Virus record (IMG/VR): IMGVR_UViG_3300043434_000753
Location: 1-23,622 of that record
Length of the DNA: 23,622 nt
From: a virus
Strand: one strand, 5' to 3'
The notes below the pieces were generated by a model, which saw nothing but the letters and a program-made list of their open reading frames with translations, was not told where the DNA came from and did not search any database. Position numbers and translations under genes: made by a program. Positions 6,828 to 22,263 of this stretch are shown here, piece after piece; position 1 is the first letter of the stretch; each line of letters opens with the position of its first letter.

Positions 6828-7353
6828 TGTAGGTGTACAGCTGCTTCATCGACTCCACGTCGCTAGTAACCGTGGGAGGATTCGAAGCGTAAGACATAAA
6901 AGTGCTATCAAGTAAGTTATTAAAGGCGGGATCGTTAGCTATAGCTTGGAACTGAGTAATAGGAGCTGATAAAGCCGCATACAAACGAGCACTACCAGCT
7001 TGACTAGCTTTGTTGAGTCGGTCGGTGTAATCAGTCAGACTTGCCGACAGCGCACCAGCAAAACGCTTAGCGGACTGGGACGCTAGCAAGTTTGGATCGT
7101 AAGCAGATAACTGCGTACTGTATTGCTTACCGATATCGCCGATAGTTTTATAAAAATCTTCCGAAAACTGAGTAGTAGCTTCCTTCGTGCTTTGAGGCAC
7201 TAAGCTGCTTATTTTTTCTTGCTGGACGTTAGTCCGCTTACGAAGATTTTTATTTTGCCGCCGAAGTGCGCGAATGGTTTTCTTCTGGATACCACGTGCA
7301 GTATCGACAGCGGACTGGGCGCGCTCAGCGGGGCTAGGACCGAATAAACCCAT
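6820..7353 (-). CDS. Alpha-helical virion-associated protein (177 aa)
   Basis: The product starts MGLFGPSPAERAQSAVDTAR and continues with a long basic helix (KKTIRALRRQNKNLRKRTNV) and further helical Ala/Ser/Gln-rich sequence (SAKRFAGALSASLTDYTDRL). The pattern of helices with regular Ala and Leu and no Cys is typical of phage internal virion or adaptor proteins. The ATG at 7353 overlaps the stop of the muramidase gene (TAATG), which indicates coupled translation and possibly a shared particle location. No catalytic motif, signal peptide or membrane helix is seen. A role as an internal or tail-associated protein is inferred from context only. Confidence 0.6.
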   Translation of the reverse strand: MGLFGPSPAERAQSAVDTARGIQKKTIRALRRQNKNLRKRTNVQQEKISSLVPQSTKEATTQFSEDFYKTIGDIGKQYSTQLSAYDPNLLASQSAKRFAGALSASLTDYTDRLNKASQAGSARLYAALSAPITQFQAIANDPAFNNLLDSTFMSYASNPPTVTSDVESMKQLYTYNV

Positions 7354-8726
7354 TATCCGAAAGGTGCTTTGCCTTTTTTAATTCTATCAGCAACGATATC
7401 TCTTATCCGCAGGATTTCTGGACTCGCTGTTGTGCTTCCTGGATCATAGAAATCCATGGAAATATGCGGTCCGGTTGCGCGGCCAGTTGTTCCCTGAATA
7501 CCTAAAGGAGTACCGGCAGCCAGTCGCATACCGGGCTTCAGATTGGGATTCAATTGATTGAAGTGCGCAATCAGAGCATCAAACGGTTTTCCTTCAGGCG
7601 AAACGCCGCGAAGTTCTACGTAGTTCCCGTAACCACGGCCTCCGGGACCGCGATTTTGCTGATTAGATTCCCTTACAACTTTTAAAACTTGCGCATTAAA
7701 AGGCGTTGCAAACATAGCTTTATCGCCTCCCGGAAGCGCAAAATCCAACCCAGGCTCACCCGTGGCATCGACGGCAGAGGTGACAACAGCATTCGGGTAA
7801 GCGATTCCGCCTCCAGTTTGCGCGAAACCTTGCCCAGGCTTGGCTCCTGTTTGAGTGTTCACACCGACAGCCTGTGCAGATAGCCCGGTAGCTACATCAT
7901 TTAAACTTTTCTCGATTCGAGACGCTTCGGCGTTATAAGCCAGTTGCTGCTGCCTCAGATCGAGAATATTTTTAGCCAGCGTTGATGGATCCAGCCCGAT
8001 TTGCTGAGTAGACTGGACTAACTTACTAATCGACTGGGATTCGAGAACATCAGCTTCTTCTTCATATCCTGCTTCCGCTAATTCATTAGCTTGATTTTGA
8101 AGCTGCAGCGCTTCGGCTGTATTTCCTGTTGTTCCGAGACCCTGAACGGCGGACTTTAAAAGAAGACCTTTAAGCGCATTCTGCAAATCAAACTTAGGAA
8201 GTTGAATGCGCTGCGCTGCGTTAGCGGGTGCGGCTGAGTTAGGCACAGATGCAGCCGGAGTACCAGTCTGCAGGAAAGGGCGCTCCTTAGCTAAAAATTG
8301 CTGAAGCTGTCCGAAGCTTTTAACAGGTTGTCCGTAATAGCTTTTACCCTGCAGAGTTGGGAAAGATGCCCATTCCGGAGCTAACTTTGCGACAGTCTCA
8401 GGAGTGATGGGATCTCGTTGCGGATCGACCCCACGCTGCCTAATCAGTTGGAGCGCAGCTCGATCTTGAGCCTGTGGACCGAAATCACGCAACCCTAATT
8501 TCTTTGCGGCACCAGCCCAGGTCCCCGGCATGAACTGGTAGGCGCCCGCAGCTCCGCTGGTGTAACCACCGGACGTTACTGTTCCGCCTGGATGCTGAGC
8601 CAGACTCGGAATCTTACCGCCGCCGAAACGAATGTTGTACTGAGGACCTTTACCGGGCGCATAAGTCCCTTCGGCAAAACTAATGGCAGCGAGCCACTGT
8701 TTTTCTTGGGGAGTTAAAGGCGCCAC
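7353..8726 (-). CDS. Virion-associated muramidase with degenerate M23-like domain (457 aa)
   Basis: The N-terminus (residues 7-145) resembles lambda-type and GH104 muramidases. It has FAEGT with Glu19 as the likely catalytic acid, YNIRFGGGK, the signature SGAAGAYQFMPGTW (57-70) and QDRAALQLI. The centre (170-300) is helical and Gln/Ala-rich. Residues 320-430 resemble an M23 LytM-type peptidase fold (GLDFALPGG, GYGNYVELRG, GPHISMDFYDPG). However, the zinc ligands look wrong: the first His is replaced near Glu324, Asp328 is present, and the final HxH reads HIS (421-423). The peptidase is therefore probably inactive. The length and linker suggest a tail- or particle-borne wall-cleaving protein rather than a simple endolysin. 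The GTG start lies in a 17-base sequence shared with the gene at 15103-15723. The stop is coupled to the next gene as TAATG. Confidence 0.75.
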   Translation of the reverse strand: MAPLTPQEKQWLAAISFAEGTYAPGKGPQYNIRFGGGKIPSLAQHPGGTVTSGGYTSGAAGAYQFMPGTWAGAAKKLGLRDFGPQAQDRAALQLIRQRGVDPQRDPITPETVAKLAPEWASFPTLQGKSYYGQPVKSFGQLQQFLAKERPFLQTGTPAASVPNSAAPANAAQRIQLPKFDLQNALKGLLLKSAVQGLGTTGNTAEALQLQNQANELAEAGYEEEADVLESQSISKLVQSTQQIGLDPSTLAKNILDLRQQQLAYNAEASRIEKSLNDVATGLSAQAVGVNTQTGAKPGQGFAQTGGGIAYPNAVVTSAVDATGEPGLDFALPGGDKAMFATPFNAQVLKVVRESNQQNRGPGGRGYGNYVELRGVSPEGKPFDALIAHFNQLNPNLKPGMRLAAGTPLGIQGTTGRATGPHISMDFYDPGSTTASPEILRIRDIVADRIKKGKAPFG

Positions 8727-15745: not shown

Positions 15746-16180
15746 TCATTCTACGTACACATTTCCATCTTCCAGAACCTCATCCCAATTAATACCCTTA
15801 ATTGACTTCAGTTGATCGAGCTTAGTGAAACGTTCGCCAGGCATACTTTGCTGCAGCTCTTTAATGTCTGAAGCAGTTTTAATTCCGACGCCTTTCAACA
15901 CCTGAGTCAATAACTGAGGAGGAGCGGTATTAATGTTGACGCGATTAAACGCAGGAACTTCAGGCTTGACTAACTGGCGGCCACGGCGCTGTTTGGTGGG
16001 AGCGGACTCAGCTTCGGCTTCCCGTACTTCTTCAGAAACTTGATTCCGGTGCGCAAAAAACACCTTGCCCGTAGTTATAGACCGAACCATCATGTACTCG
16101 CCATCATCGTGAGTACTCACAATTTCAATCTTAACCCCGTTAGGGGTGTAAGTGAACTCTTTAACCTGAGTCACAGTCAT
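15746..16180 (-). CDS. SH3-like plus helix-hairpin-helix protein (144 aa)
   Basis: The ATG at 16180 is the first that follows the terminator; a TTG at 16225 would add 15 residues (SNFYVKIPGDTVHI) that also look like a beta strand, so the true start may be there. Residues 1-50 (MTVTQVKEFTYTPNGVKIEI, then EYMMVRSITTGKVFFAHRNQ) read as a small beta-barrel. Residues 80-144 match a ComEA-type helix-hairpin-helix: VNINTAPPQLLTQVLKGVGI, KTASDI, and GERFTKLDQLKSIKGI. HhH domains bind DNA without sequence preference. After the capsid genes, a DNA-contacting packaging, neck or completion protein is plausible. The first frame, overlapping the 291-aa gene up to 16453, is a shadow. Confidence 0.65.
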   Translation of the reverse strand: MTVTQVKEFTYTPNGVKIEIVSTHDDGEYMMVRSITTGKVFFAHRNQVSEEVREAEAESAPTKQRRGRQLVKPEVPAFNRVNINTAPPQLLTQVLKGVGIKTASDIKELQQSMPGERFTKLDQLKSIKGINWDEVLEDGNVYVE

Positions 16181-16226
16181 TATGTGAACAGTATCTCCGG
16201 GTATCTTAACGTAAAAATTCGACAAT

Positions 16227-16250
16227 AAAAAACCCCCTCCGAAGAGGGGG
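16227..16250 (-). terminator. Strong Rho-independent terminator with UUCG loop
   Basis: On the minus strand CCCCCTC-TTCG-GAGGGGG (16250-16233) forms a 7-bp stem with an UUCG tetraloop, followed by six T (16232-16227). It lies 27 nt after the stop of the 291-aa gene (16278) and would end the capsid transcript before the SH3/HhH-like gene. Confidence 0.85.
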
Positions 16251-16277
16251 CCGTCCGCCGACATCCGATTAAGTTTA

Positions 16278-17153
16278 TCAGGCGGAGGGAGTGGTGCTGG
16301 TGTAGATGGAAGACTCCACAACACCGGCAGGCTGAAGTGCCACGTCGGAGCGCTTGGGGGGCTCGTCGGGAACAAGCCAGCAAACTTCGCAGATTGCCAG
16401 AGCTTTGTCCTTACCGATAAGCTTGCCGGTTTTTGCACGAGGATCGTACACACCGGAAGCCTGTGCCAGACCCGAAGCAGCAGCGCCGCCGAGGTTACGG
16501 ACAGCAGACAGCTTATAGGTGGTGTCAGCAGTCACAGCGTGCATGTTCGCATCGTTCCAGGCGTTGCTGGAATTGAACGAACCGTTTTCGATGCGGCTGT
16601 TGGAACCAACAATAGTGGCGAAGAAGCCACTGGGGCTGGGGGTGGTGTTCAGACCCACGCTCAGAGCGGGGCCGAGACCCAGGGTAGGAGTGGCGGAACC
16701 GCCGCCCACACCGCTGGAAACCACATCGCCGCCGTCAAGACGCAGACCCACGCGGTACACATAGGCACCGGAAGGAACGGTAATGCCGTTGGCGATATCG
16801 GAGCGGATGTCCTTGTGATAATCCGGCGAGGGGATGATCACGTTGGCAGTGGTGAAGGGAACGTTGTCCCCGTTCAGACCAGAGCCATAAGGAGTGGTGT
16901 AGTACTCCAGCTGGTTGACGGAACCGAGGGCCTGGTAGGACAGGTCCACGTAACCGACGGCTTGCTGAGCAATCCAGCCGGGACGGAAAATAACGCCAAC
17001 AGGACCGCCAATCGGCTGATTGGTGAGGGTCTCGCTGGTGCCGTTTTCGTTCAGGAAATCAACGGACTTCGACTCGTGCCAGTAACGAAGAACGTTGGTG
17101 TAGTTACCAGGATAGATCTTGGTAACGGAGATCTGGTTAGGGTTGATGGCCAT
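16278..17153 (-). CDS. Abundant virion protein next to the major capsid (291 aa)
   Basis: The ATG at 17153 has GGAGG with a 9-nt gap, an excellent ribosome site as expected for a highly made virion protein. The product starts MAINPNQISVTKIYPGNYTN, is beta-rich (GYVDLSYQALGSVNQLEYYT), and has a Gly/Ser/Pro-rich middle (VSSGVGGGSATPTLGLGPAL) that could be a flexible linker. The C-terminal part includes LAICEVCWLVPDEPP and ends SIYTSTTPSA. It follows the major capsid gene by 14 nt and is closed by a strong terminator. A capsid decoration, second capsid or tail-tube protein is likely. I cannot choose among them from the sequence. Confidence 0.65.
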   Translation of the reverse strand: MAINPNQISVTKIYPGNYTNVLRYWHESKSVDFLNENGTSETLTNQPIGGPVGVIFRPGWIAQQAVGYVDLSYQALGSVNQLEYYTTPYGSGLNGDNVPFTTANVIIPSPDYHKDIRSDIANGITVPSGAYVYRVGLRLDGGDVVSSGVGGGSATPTLGLGPALSVGLNTTPSPSGFFATIVGSNSRIENGSFNSSNAWNDANMHAVTADTTYKLSAVRNLGGAAASGLAQASGVYDPRAKTGKLIGKDKALAICEVCWLVPDEPPKRSDVALQPAGVVESSIYTSTTPSA

Positions 17154-17167
17154 CGTTAGTTACCTCC

Positions 17168-18283
17168 TCAAGCGTTAAATGAGTAGGCGATGGTCGCGAA
17201 GTCAGCGTTCAGAAGTTCGAAACCTGCGTACAGGCTCCAAATCATCATGATAAAACGGCTGAAATCGTCGTTGTTGTTCAACAGCACCTGAGCATTGTTG
17301 CCGCCGATGCCGACGCCCACGCTCTGGGGACCGAAGAACATACCAATGGCGCTCTCGTAAGACTTAGACGTGCCGCCGATGGTGGCAGTCTGGCTCTGAG
17401 AAGGCATGTTGGTGGATTCGAAGAAGCGAACGCCTTCGAACACAAAACCCGTGGGCATGATCGGCTCGCCTGCCACAAAGGTGGCTTGACCGAAGCCCTG
17501 ACCCATGTAGATGGCAGCGTTAGGCTGCATCGAGGACATGAGGGGGTTGATCTGACCGTTGCCGGGGTAACGAGCAACTTCGCGGAAGTCGCTGTTTTGG
17601 CGCAGGTGCATCAGGAAGGTCGGATCGCAAACGCAGCGATAGAAACCGTCCTGGTAGGTGGGGGTGTTCCGCTTACGCAGGCTCTTCACCACGCGGAGCA
17701 GGTCATCCTTAACGTCGAACTTGGCTTGCTCGGCGTTGGCGTAGGTGAGGCTACCAACGGCAAGATCACCGGGGTAGTAGTAACCACCTTGGCTGTCAGA
17801 GGCTTGACCCTTGGAAACAGCTTTCAGGAGTTCGTTGATGAACACCCGATCGCGCCAACGACGATAGTCGTCGAGCAGAGTCAGAGAACCGATGGACTGG
17901 TGGAAAGCGGTGAGGTTACCGGTATCCAGCAGCAGACGCTGAGCGGTGATCAGGGTCTCGCGAGCAATCTTGAAGGTGCTCGGCTGAGTGGGATCACTCG
18001 GGTCAGCAGGACCAGTGTACTCGCGGAGGGTCACGAGCACTTTGTCCTTAACAATGTTGCGGCTGTTAGCCGTGCCGATGGTTTGCTCGGCAGTGCGCTC
18101 CCGGCTTTCTTTCGAACCAGGATTGCCCCAGAAGCGATACCGGTCTAACTGAACAGTCTGGCCGGGTTGCTTCGAGAAATCGTGCACAACCACGGGCTCA
18201 GCTGCCATCTCCACCACATACGCGGGGTGAGGACGGTATAATTCAGCGCCCAGCAGCTTCGGGAAGTCATTATCGACGAACAA
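17168..18283 (-). CDS. Major capsid protein, HK97-fold candidate (371 aa)
   Basis: The start is TTG at 18283 with GGAGG eight bases upstream, an excellent ribosome site for a TTG start. The product has the size, composition and layout of HK97-fold capsid proteins. It has a helical N-terminus (MFVDNDFPKLLGAELYRPHP), an E-loop-like region with NSRNIVKDKVLVTLREYTGP, and a P-domain helix with FINELLKAV. The A-domain strand YRCVCDPTFLMHLRQNSDFR and a conserved GMFFGPQSVGVGIGG element follow. A Gly/Asn-rich C-terminal region ends LLNADFATIAYSFNA. There is no other capsid candidate as good in the window. It lies between the scaffold-like and decoration-like genes, as in many tailed phages. The assignment is by composition and order, not by a database hit. 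Confidence 0.75.
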   Translation of the reverse strand: MFVDNDFPKLLGAELYRPHPAYVVEMAAEPVVVHDFSKQPGQTVQLDRYRFWGNPGSKESRERTAEQTIGTANSRNIVKDKVLVTLREYTGPADPSDPTQPSTFKIARETLITAQRLLLDTGNLTAFHQSIGSLTLLDDYRRWRDRVFINELLKAVSKGQASDSQGGYYYPGDLAVGSLTYANAEQAKFDVKDDLLRVVKSLRKRNTPTYQDGFYRCVCDPTFLMHLRQNSDFREVARYPGNGQINPLMSSMQPNAAIYMGQGFGQATFVAGEPIMPTGFVFEGVRFFESTNMPSQSQTATIGGTSKSYESAIGMFFGPQSVGVGIGGNNAQVLLNNNDDFSRFIMMIWSLYAGFELLNADFATIAYSFNA

Positions 18284-19616: not shown

Positions 19617-20534
19617 TCAGGCGTTATCCAGGAAAAGCAGCTTGCTACGCAGTGCCTCGGGGCTCATCTGGGACAGGTAGCGCCAGGCTTGCTCAGGATT
19701 CTGATCCATGGTCTGGTTGAAACCATTCCACTGGGACTCGGCGTCCACACCGCGAGCGCCGCCGGTAACGGCAGCAGGCACAGCGGGCATCTGATCGTAC
19801 TGAGGCTGGTACTGCTGGCTGTAACCGTAATCAGTTTCGTCGTCCACGGGGTAGACCTCCGTGAAGAAACGATTGGTGTAATCAGCCAGTTGATCAGGAT
19901 CAGTCAGAATGTGCTCCATGGCGCCAGCTCGCAGAGCGAGGGCTTCCATGTTTTCGTTCTGCTGGATCAGAGCGTCTTCCAGAGTAACGGCGTACTCATT
20001 AAGAATCGCCGGAGCTTCGATACCGAAGTGGTTAACTACGGCGCTTGTTTCCTCGCTTAGTTGTGCGGGTTGCGTTGCCGTAGAAGTCGGATAGGAAGTC
20101 TGGGTTGTAGACGCGCTGTTGTACGAGATCTGCTGATCCGTAGGCGCTTGGTACTGCCAGGGTTGGGCCTGTAAATTCTGACTGTACTGTTGAGTATCCT
20201 GCGGCACCATTTGGTACTGAGGATACTGTTGTGCCTGGCTGGGGGACGGGGAGATCCGTGAAACCACCCGGTCCAGGCTGGTCAGCGCTGCTTCCCACGG
20301 GTTGGACGGGGAGGAGGCTGACGGAGACTGGTTGTACTGGTTGTTGGTAGAAGGGGCCGTAACCGGTGTTGCCGGCGACTGCACTTGGGGCATAGCCACC
20401 GAAGGCACCCCCTGGGTATTGGCTACCCACTGCGGGTAGGCTGTTGAGCCCATATCCGCCGAGGGCGCTGCCTGAGGGGCCGCTACCGCCGGGGAGACCG
20501 GGCTCGGGATCGAAGCTGGGATCTGCTGGCTCAT
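19617..20534 (-). CDS. Scaffold-like protein overlapping the portal gene (305 aa)
   Basis: The ATG at 20534 lies inside the portal gene and is read in the +1 frame for 503 nt. The first ~160 residues are rich in Pro, Gln, Ser and Thr (MSQQIPASIPSPVSPAVAAP...; several QQYPQYQ-like units). The portion after the portal stop is structured: LSEETSAVVNHFGIEAPAIL, then helices with LEDALIQQNENMEALALR and LADYTNRFFTEVYPVDDETD, ending SPEALRSKLLFLDNA. Composition, helicity, size and position between portal and capsid match phage scaffold proteins. No protease triad was seen. Later in-frame Met codons (residue 28 and onwards) could be real starts, which would shorten the overlap. Identity as scaffold is an inference from order. 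Confidence 0.6.
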   Translation of the reverse strand: MSQQIPASIPSPVSPAVAAPQAAPSADMGSTAYPQWVANTQGVPSVAMPQVQSPATPVTAPSTNNQYNQSPSASSPSNPWEAALTSLDRVVSRISPSPSQAQQYPQYQMVPQDTQQYSQNLQAQPWQYQAPTDQQISYNSASTTQTSYPTSTATQPAQLSEETSAVVNHFGIEAPAILNEYAVTLEDALIQQNENMEALALRAGAMEHILTDPDQLADYTNRFFTEVYPVDDETDYGYSQQYQPQYDQMPAVPAAVTGGARGVDAESQWNGFNQTMDQNPEQAWRYLSQMSPEALRSKLLFLDNA

Positions 20535-22263
20535 AGCTGCCCGAGTAAGTCAGTTCTTGCGCAAGGTGATCGAACGTCCTGTATAACAGGCCGGTCAGGT
20601 TTAGCCGAGGGTCAGCCGCTAAGGGTTGGTTCGGCGCAAGCGGATGTGGCGTCTGCAACATCTGACTTAATAATACTAAAAATTGCTGGAATGCGCCTTG
20701 CGTTTGTTGAATCATGCGGAAAGGGAATCCCTTCAGCATCTCACTACGCTCTGCATCCGTCTTATCGGGGAACAGATACTTCAGAGCTTCAACGCTATCT
20801 ACACCAAGCTCCTGCAAGTTTCTGACAACGATCGATTTCTGGTTGATGTCGTACGCGGTGTCTTCGTAAACATCTCCTTGGAAACGATACGTAACATCAC
20901 GATCACCATCAGGCGGCAGACCGTATACGCCAGGAGGGACATTGTTGGCCTCTAAAGCCTCTCGAATAGAAGTTTCGACCTTGGCTTTAAACCTGCCGGA
21001 AGCGACTTGATATTTTTCGATTGCTTCGGCGGTTTCCTCTTTAGGAGGCTTAGGCTGTTTGAGACCGCTTACGGCAATAAAGCTTTCCCGGAAGATCTCC
21101 TCCTGGTGGAAGATAATCATTTCCAGCAAACGACAAAAACCGTATGTAAGAAAACTTTTATTTTTACGCAGAGCAGTCGCCTGAGCGCGACCCATTAGAC
21201 CTTTAATTTCTGTTGCAGTCGCACCAGCCGAAATCGAAATCTCATCGACACCGCCTAAAGCCGTACGAATTTCTTCACGAAGAAGAAGGGCGTATCGGTT
21301 CATATCCCCGTTTACGGGGTCGGGCGTCATATAGCCCACACGGTCATTCGGCTCGATGTTCGCGATGACGCGCGGAACTTTCAGACCGCCGAGAGTCGAA
21401 GCAGATCCGAATGGCTCTGAAACTCGGGTCGAGGGGGTGTCACGTCCCGCAAATCCGCTCTGACTACTAATAGTCGGACGGAAGGTACGACCTTCATCTG
21501 CAGCTTCGACCAGATCGCTACGTGGGCGAGAACTGATGAGCGTCGGATTGCCAAAAAACTCAATGTTTTTGGCGATGTTACGCATCATCTGATCATGAAG
21601 CACGATCTGCTCCATGAACGGCTCGAACTCACCCTCGCCTTCAGTGCCGCTGCTGTTGGGTTTGTTTAAAACCTCTACAGCTGGGATGAATCCGAGGGTA
21701 TTCGGGCGGCTGTTTTTAGGAGTTAGAACCGCTCCGGGCTCTAATTCAAAACTGAGCTCAGTGTTAGCCTCGAATTCGTCAATACGATCGTTAGTTATCG
21801 AGATTCGAACGTAACGTTCGTTCATCCCATAGCTGTCAGAAGGCAGCCCTAACGTTGTATTACGAACCTTATAGCTGTAAATAATTACAACTTCTTCTAT
21901 GTTGCCGTTAATGTCGTGATAAACGCGGTACTGATCTTTAGTGAAGAAATAAATCTGATACTTCAGCTTCGGATCAGGCCGAAAATAGAACAATCCACAG
22001 CCGTCGATCAGAAAATTCCTGATAATGGCAGGAAAACGGATGTCGAGCTTGTTTAAATCAATAAGATCTTGTAAAAACTTTGTTCGAGCTCGGTAAGTAT
22101 CCTGTTCGCAATAAAAAAACAGACCCTTCTTAATCATCAGAAGGGTCATTTGCTGAAGATGGCCCAAAACGACCATCGTGGCAGCCTGACGCGAGCGATC
22201 CTGCGTACGAGATGCTTCGAGAATCTCGATAAACCGTTGTCGGACGCCGAGTGTATCTGCCAT
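20032..22263 (-). CDS. Portal-like protein with long Gly/Pro-rich tail (743 aa)
   Basis: Portal proteins form the ring through which DNA is packaged. The sequence has the alpha/beta layout of the family: an N-terminal helical region (RQAATMVVLGHLQQMTLLMI), a wing with strands such as YFFTKDQYRVYHDINGNIEE, and a helical stem near SISAGATATEIKGLMGRAQA. A clip/crown region follows (VYRFQGDVYEDTAYDINQ-like strands). Residues 577-743 are Gly/Pro/Ser/Gln-rich, unlike the rest, and form the part that overlaps the 305-aa gene. The ATG at 22263 is clear. The gene lies between an Ala-rich protein and the scaffold-like gene, the usual portal-scaffold-capsid order. Confidence 0.75.
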   Translation of the reverse strand: MADTLGVRQRFIEILEASRTQDRSRQAATMVVLGHLQQMTLLMIKKGLFFYCEQDTYRARTKFLQDLIDLNKLDIRFPAIIRNFLIDGCGLFYFRPDPKLKYQIYFFTKDQYRVYHDINGNIEEVVIIYSYKVRNTTLGLPSDSYGMNERYVRISITNDRIDEFEANTELSFELEPGAVLTPKNSRPNTLGFIPAVEVLNKPNSSGTEGEGEFEPFMEQIVLHDQMMRNIAKNIEFFGNPTLISSRPRSDLVEAADEGRTFRPTISSQSGFAGRDTPSTRVSEPFGSASTLGGLKVPRVIANIEPNDRVGYMTPDPVNGDMNRYALLLREEIRTALGGVDEISISAGATATEIKGLMGRAQATALRKNKSFLTYGFCRLLEMIIFHQEEIFRESFIAVSGLKQPKPPKEETAEAIEKYQVASGRFKAKVETSIREALEANNVPPGVYGLPPDGDRDVTYRFQGDVYEDTAYDINQKSIVVRNLQELGVDSVEALKYLFPDKTDAERSEMLKGFPFRMIQQTQGAFQQFLVLLSQMLQTPHPLAPNQPLAADPRLNLTGLLYRTFDHLAQELTYSGSYEPADPSFDPEPGLPGGSGPSGSALGGYGLNSLPAVGSQYPGGAFGGYAPSAVAGNTGYGPFYQQPVQPVSVSLLPVQPVGSSADQPGPGGFTDLPVPQPGTTVSSVPNGAAGYSTVQSEFTGPTLAVPSAYGSADLVQQRVYNPDFLSDFYGNATRTTKRGNKRRS

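Follow-up and report, generated by a model that had tools for sequence, protein, structure and literature searches.

A conserved two-frame overlap joins the portal gene to a putative scaffold gene in relatives of Synechococcus phage S-EIV1

Does a single stretch of phage DNA encode both the end of a portal protein and, in another frame, the beginning of a second head protein, and if so, how is that second protein started and what might it do? The question arises in the window analyzed here, a 23,622-base virus fragment related to Synechococcus phage S-EIV1 (KJ410740). An earlier note on this DNA had described two same-strand frames that stay open together for 503 nt at 20032-20534. The open reading frame list reproduced these coordinates exactly and placed both genes on the minus strand, which the earlier note had left unstated. 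We refer to the second, scaffold-like gene as S. The features of the locus, in window coordinates, are:

20032-22263, minus strand: portal protein gene (743-aa ORF, 22263 to 20032)
20550-20552, minus strand: S-frame stop codon, five codons before the S ATG (TGA in 63 and TAA in 18 of 81 clade 1 sequences)
20532-20534, minus strand: S start codon ATG, falling at portal codon 577
19617-20534, minus strand: S, the scaffold-like gene (305-aa ORF, 20534 to 19617), in the +1 frame of the portal gene
20032-20534, minus strand: region of 503 nt, almost certainly dual-coding, spanning portal residues 577-743 and S residues 1-167/168
20253-20300, minus strand: predicted S helix, residues 79-94, with an invariant P-W-E, inside the overlap (alignment of 44; low-confidence model)
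19617-20031, minus strand: C-terminal part of S outside the overlap, mostly predicted helical (low-confidence model; dN.071, dS.531)
17168-18283, minus strand: major capsid protein (MCP) gene, downstream of S (phrog_1357, E 2.2e-22; 67.8% identity to S-EIV1)

The gene order portal, S, small genes and MCP is found both in the window and in S-EIV1, the sole record with relatives in the phage collection (portal 46.3% identity, AHV82224.1; MCP 67.8%), and S residues 159-303 are 32.2% identical to their S-EIV1 counterpart. Elsewhere in the window, a second same-strand overlap of 176 nt at 16278-16453 (ORFs 16278-17153 and 15746-16453, the latter with a GTG start) may reflect a wrong start, and the ORF at 7353-8726, a candidate lysis or tail enzyme, matches Peptidase_M23 slightly below the Pfam cut-off (28.4 vs 28.7 bits).

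The assignment of the 743-aa protein as a portal, made in the earlier note, is supported by profile and model comparisons. The protein matched phrog_20475 (virion structural protein, head and packaging; E 1.7e-161) and, over residues 61-243, the portal family PHROG_64 (E 5.7e-8). Foldseek ranks 1-33 against the PDB all carried titles of phage portals, portal/tail/neck complexes or infection-stage T7 particles (best E 1.7e-6), at TM-scores of 0.10-0.28 and from a poor query model (mean pLDDT 38.8). A Pfam search returned no match, a PDB sequence search nothing under E 0.3, and hhalign against a two-sequence T7/Syn5 portal profile was not significant (Prob 0.4, E 0.15). In the same low-confidence model the last portal helix covers residues 553-573 and no structure is predicted beyond it; the S ATG at codon 577, where the overlap begins, follows directly. 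The 167 residues encoded within the overlap are dominated by Gly, Pro and Ser (G27 P23 S19), and P674, P676, G677, T679, P700, G709, A711, D712, L713 and Q716 are invariant across 26 sequences of clades 1 and 2. Change in the tail is faster than in the portal body (dN/dS of the body.048 in clade 1 and.064 in clade 2), yet far from free.

Of the 407 records judged among the matches listed, 405, counting the window, had both frames open with S in +1 (80 + 80 + 58 + 34 + 11 + 142; two exceptions make up the rest). With length taken as the distance between the first open S codon and the portal stop, the overlaps are 449-677 nt long and comprise 321 distinct sequences, a count made because some contigs were fetched twice, and the relatives sampled extend down to portal local identities of 39-52% to that of the window. 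Both ORFs are present in 80/80 of the listed window relatives in clade 1 (L003-L082), where one portal runs off its contig, and in 81/81 of those listed in clade 2 (S-EIV1 and L083-L162), where one is truncated; the S frame is +1 in all 81 sequences of clade 1, window included, and in all 81 of clade 2. A motif-based sample contributed 79 loci; in 60 of them the contig holds both the end of the portal and S, and 58 of these 60 overlap in +1 by 400 nt or more; another 38 motif-sample loci comprised 34 complete cases, all overlapping, and four that run off the contig. The lowest portal identity to the window within this sample was 39% (L198). Overlaps of 485-545 nt were present in 11/11 phage-like contigs from bacterial or archaeal MAGs, whose portals are 43-52% identical to that of the window, except for the S-EIV1-like L283 at 75%. 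The MAGs holding these contigs (L280-L290) are labelled Euryarchaeota, Bacteroidetes, Rhodobacteraceae and others, which probably reflects binning contamination. Groups C and D (L291-L450) showed the overlap in 142/142 complete cases; left unjudged were 15 portals that run off or stop at the end of the contig before any S is seen, and three that run off while S is still open.

The earlier note had named a stop in either frame among relatives as evidence against a functional overlap. Such stops were absent from the 405 records, and the two exceptions are flawed contigs: L169, an IMG/VR contig, has frameshifts throughout the portal gene that scatter the portal over three frames and look like uncorrected sequencing errors, and in L228 the portal stop lies 12 nt from the contig end. 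With hundreds of contigs keeping both frames, sequencing or assembly error was ruled out as the source of the overlap.

How surprising this openness is depends on what is held constant. Over 20,000 trials that kept the portal protein and drew synonymous codons from the portal body, the +1 frame came out open in 2.3% for the window and 0.3% for S-EIV1; when the portal codons of the overlap were shuffled instead, the figure was 0.03-0.04%. From the other side, keeping S and resampling its codons left the portal frame open in 0.005% (window) and 0% (S-EIV1), and shuffling the S codons in 2.7% (window) and 4.7% (S-EIV1). The dual openness of a single sequence is thus only moderately unusual, and it is conservation that decides.

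Conservation was therefore read in both frames. In clade 1 (41 nonredundant sequences), mean mismatch at portal codon positions 1, 2 and 3 was.161,.078 and.518 in the body and.209,.118 and.218 in the overlap. In the overlap, the third base of a portal codon is the second of an S codon, and the first portal base is the third S base, with no free wobble base in either frame; because neither position is free, one protein alone cannot account for the pattern. We then classed changes by their effect in each frame, using sequence pairs that share no member (20, 24, 26 and 20 pairs in groups 1, 2, C and D; 19, 20, 20 and 16 for S outside the overlap). These groups are named by query (window, S-EIV1, L280 and L287) and not by tree, so that independence is not implied. 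Changes silent in the portal and altering S occurred in the overlap at rates of.096,.100,.144 and.150, against.962,.845,.900 and.966 in the portal body read in a fictional +1 frame. Changes silent in S and altering the portal occurred at.110,.209,.197 and.212, against a dS of.531,.512,.622 and.594 in S outside the overlap. Doubly silent changes were the fastest class in the overlap (1.23, 1.05,.74 and.68), measured on few sites (27-72 per group), and reading the overlap in the +2 frame as a control lowered this class to only.20-.31. In the portal body the doubly silent class was faster still (1.68, saturated, 1.13 and 2.37), so some further constraint or slower mutation may act in the overlap.

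Omega values agreed with these rates. Across groups 1, 2, C and D, portal omega was.27 (.19-.37),.56 (.41-.74),.44 (.37-.52) and.48 (.40-.59), weakest in clade 2, and S omega was.24 (.18-.31),.27 (.21-.35),.33 (.27-.40) and.34 (.28-.42), with every bootstrap interval below 1. The portal body, which has no S frame, gave a ratio (NN/NS) of.68-.78 in the fictional-frame control run for S omega; as this control is not 1, S omega alone would overstate the constraint, and the case rests on the one-frame-silent comparisons. The omega and change-class rates differ slightly, as the change-class analysis keeps changes to S-frame stops. Codon usage gave no direction for frame age: neither overlap frame correlates well with the portal body (r -.28 to.16), and the groups disagree.

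Taken on these sequence comparisons, the overlap is almost certainly dual-coding, with purifying selection in both frames. The two-frame constraint that the earlier note had raised is borne out by the strong depression of both one-frame-silent classes in four groups, and the synonymous-site comparison it had suggested came out clearly positive in the same four groups of relatives. That only one frame is translated while the other stays open through stop-avoiding composition is extremely improbable: Ser/Gln/Pro/Ala and Gly/Pro/Ser codons do seldom give out-of-frame stops, and the portal frame survives 2.7-4.7% of S-codon shuffles, but this reading is already contradicted by the one-frame-silent classes in all four groups and by the 405 of 407 judged records, among the matches listed, that keep both frames open.

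Upstream of the S start, too, synonymous change is reduced. The portal synonymous rate in clade 1 is mildly low over about 190 nt (window 20538-20727; O/E.54-.87), falling to.20 next to the S ATG, and in clade 2 over about 265 nt, with a highly conserved block at -265 to -244 (O/E 0.16). A third ORF was ruled out as the cause, since only the portal frame is stop-free there; perhaps an internal promoter or RNA element lies behind the depression. It is hardly credible that such a DNA or RNA element (packaging site, promoter or RNA fold) explains the conservation in place of a second protein, since, for all that the mildly low upstream rates in clades 1 and 2 and the slower doubly silent sites in the overlap would suit it, an element would account neither for a +1 frame stop-free over 449-677 nt in all groups nor for doubly silent sites that change several times as fast as one-frame-silent ones.

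Start codons and the sequence before them bear on how S would be made. In clade 1 the S ATG is present in 81/81 and an S-frame stop lies five codons before it in 81/81 (the S-EIV1 row set aside). In clade 2, also with an ATG in 81/81, the S frame opens one codon before the ATG, and AAAAGGAG precedes the start in 81/81 (duplex with the 16S tail -11.0 kcal/mol), a Shine-Dalgarno built from the portal's own Lys-Glu codons. Group D has a GTG two codons into the open frame in 66/68, the stop-to-start distance being six codons in the other 2, with AAGGAG near the S start in 67/68 (median duplex -7.7). Group C has an ATG one codon into the open frame in 68/77, the stop-to-start distance in the remainder being two codons in 1, five in 5, nine in 1 and sixteen in 2; AAGGAG was absent near the S start in all 77, and the duplex reached only -4.7. 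The window's own clade 1 showed no Shine-Dalgarno (duplex -2.5). Random sites in the window's portal gene gave a median duplex of -4.0, with 5% at -10.3, so only the clade 2 energy stands out: group D at -7.7 lies inside the background, and clade 1 is weaker than the median. Relative to a portal motif of two Tyr codons four apart, the clade 1 start lies 12 nt downstream of that in clade 2. RNA structure at the window's S start is weaker than over most of the portal gene, with structure no stronger in 19% of body stretches (47%, 9% and 6% for three other sequences); we therefore rejected weak structure as a special feature of the S start, as it is not unusual against the portal body.

These patterns point to internal initiation of S rather than frameshifting, because a conserved start right after a same-frame stop leaves few codons for a shift. 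In the window's clade, initiation might depend on coupling to portal translation or on low structure. The earlier note had offered a frameshift fusion as an alternative. A +1 shift of ribosomes on the portal codons that lead up to 20534, yielding a portal-S fusion with S alone never started, would be in keeping with the near-invariant DNA at this site in clade 1 (synonymous O/E 0.2 over the 8 codons before the ATG) and with the missing Shine-Dalgarno there. We nonetheless regard it as very unlikely: in nearly all sequences one to five codons separate the same-frame stop from the conserved start (five for clade 1, one for clade 2, two for 66/68 of group D and one for 68/77 of group C), start codons are conserved even though they stand 12 nt apart between clades 1 and 2, and clade 2 has a strong Shine-Dalgarno.

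The internally started S would have two dissimilar parts. The 167 residues within the overlap are rich in Ser, Gln, Pro and Ala (S27 Q27 P23 A22), and a low-confidence model (mean pLDDT 44.1) places coil up to residue 78, a helix at 79-94 and then coil again, followed on the C-terminal side by helices between 161-224 and between 265-304. The earlier description of both overlap products as low complexity holds for composition but misses that S has, besides the predicted helix 79-94, five invariant residues in the overlap (P79, W80, E81, A83 and S92 in 44 aligned members of clades 1 and 2). Its suggestion that structured S begins at the portal stop fits the model, where the helical part is predicted from 161, near S residue 167/168.

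The function of S was approached through homology and gene order. S matched no PHROG, searches of Pfam and the PDB gave no scaffold-family match, hhalign found no homology to the T7/Syn5 scaffolds (Prob 0.2, E 0.35), and a fold search with the S model gave nothing below E 0.39, which is uninformative at pLDDT 44. Weak Pfam CCDC53 matches in 21/43 S members (best 2.3e-4) were taken as coiled-coil noise, because in the window member they sit on a predicted long helix. The position of S between portal and MCP, as in T7-like phages, makes a capsid scaffolding protein its most likely identity, so that the earlier term scaffold-like is plausible by gene order and finds no counterpart in homology to scaffold families. 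It is rather unlikely, but deserves a hearing, that S is real and dual-coded and yet serves as an internal virion, portal-associated core or head-completion protein. The empty scaffold searches and the long, disordered Ser/Gln/Pro-rich N-terminus would suit such a role; against it, the order portal, S, small genes and MCP fits T7 genes 8-9-10 and Syn5 37-38-39, and no other scaffold candidate was recognized between portal and MCP, where the 248-aa ORF was searched in PHROGs and Pfam and the 68-aa ORF in PHROGs.

Altogether, we consider it quite probable that the locus is a true and old tail-to-head overlapping pair of a portal and an internally started S, the latter most likely a scaffold. Ribosomes reading the portal frame would make the 743-aa portal with a flexible Gly/Pro/Ser tail of about 167 residues, while others would initiate internally, directly behind the codons for the portal core, and translate the +1 frame into a 305-aa S whose Ser/Gln/Pro N-terminus is disordered and whose C-terminus is helical. 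Both proteins are probably made, and S would act as a capsid scaffold whose synthesis the overlap may tie to that of the portal. The portal C-terminus faces the capsid interior; if this holds here, portal tail and S would share one compartment, and the overlap would keep them in step. Excerpts of two reports (PMC10275583, PMC3224144) describe the portal of known phages as the presumed nucleator of assembly, acting with the scaffold. More tentatively, the overlap might be a family-wide out-of-frame gene joining, in which a portal C-terminal tail and a scaffold N-terminal arm, both flexible and one of them born by overprinting in a tailed dsDNA phage, are encoded by one piece of DNA and meet in the procapsid, so that the two initiators of head assembly would be hard-wired to be expressed and to evolve together.

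S-EIV1 itself has the same gene pair, its open S frame overlapping the portal by 554 nt; with the portal motif as reference, its S start is placed 12 nt upstream of the window's. Its GenBank record annotates only the last 133 aa of S (AHV82225.1), from a start after the portal stop, so that 192/325 residues are missing; AHV82225.1 (L002:8315-8716) looks like a truncated call of S, and annotation can evidently miss such overlaps. In the same record, the MCP gene (KJ410740 60859-62010; 383-aa ORF, GTG start) is not annotated as MCP: an opposite-strand ORF, AHV82227.1, lies over much of it, and only the C-terminal 156 aa are annotated (AHV82228.1).

Among better-studied phages, phiX174 is a tiny ssDNA phage whose B gene lies inside A; the partner of B is a replication protein rather than a portal. 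Overlapping genes as such are well known, and phiX174 (Microviridae) already provides a scaffold encoded in this way: according to an excerpt of PMC3003669, the internal scaffold B occupies a different frame of the overlapped gene A, which is its likeness to the window. T7 and Syn5 resemble the window in the order portal-scaffold-MCP (genes 8-9-10 and 37-38-39), and T7 also in portal fold and in the size of its scaffold gene (924 nt with stop, thus 307 aa). They differ in that S is not homologous to their scaffolds by hhalign and in that portal and scaffold do not overlap in T7, where 99 nt lie between them, or in Syn5; in S-TIP37 the overlap is 8 nt. In lambda, gene Nu3 has its start inside the head gene C that precedes it, in the frame of C, and overlaps it; in the window the two frames are different and the overlapped gene encodes the portal. 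The lambda assembly initiator is made up of portal, C protease and scaffold Nu3, as an excerpt of PMC3224144 describes.

A literature search conducted mostly below full-text level, with the S-EIV1 genome paper (doi 10.1038/ismej.2015.24) excluded, found no published report of the portal-S overlap. Across 12,609 virus reference genomes, +1 overlaps have a median of 14 nt (IQR 8-26), some in ssRNA viruses exceeding 2,000 nt (excerpts of PMC8903798), and 84% of viral overlaps are below 50 nt (excerpt of PMC7017920). At 449-677 nt, and kept throughout a broad group of tailed phages, the dual-coding block described here is far outside the usual lengths of +1 overlaps; it connects a portal tail to a putative scaffold in a testable way, and its hundreds of natural variants can be used for studying two-frame constraint.
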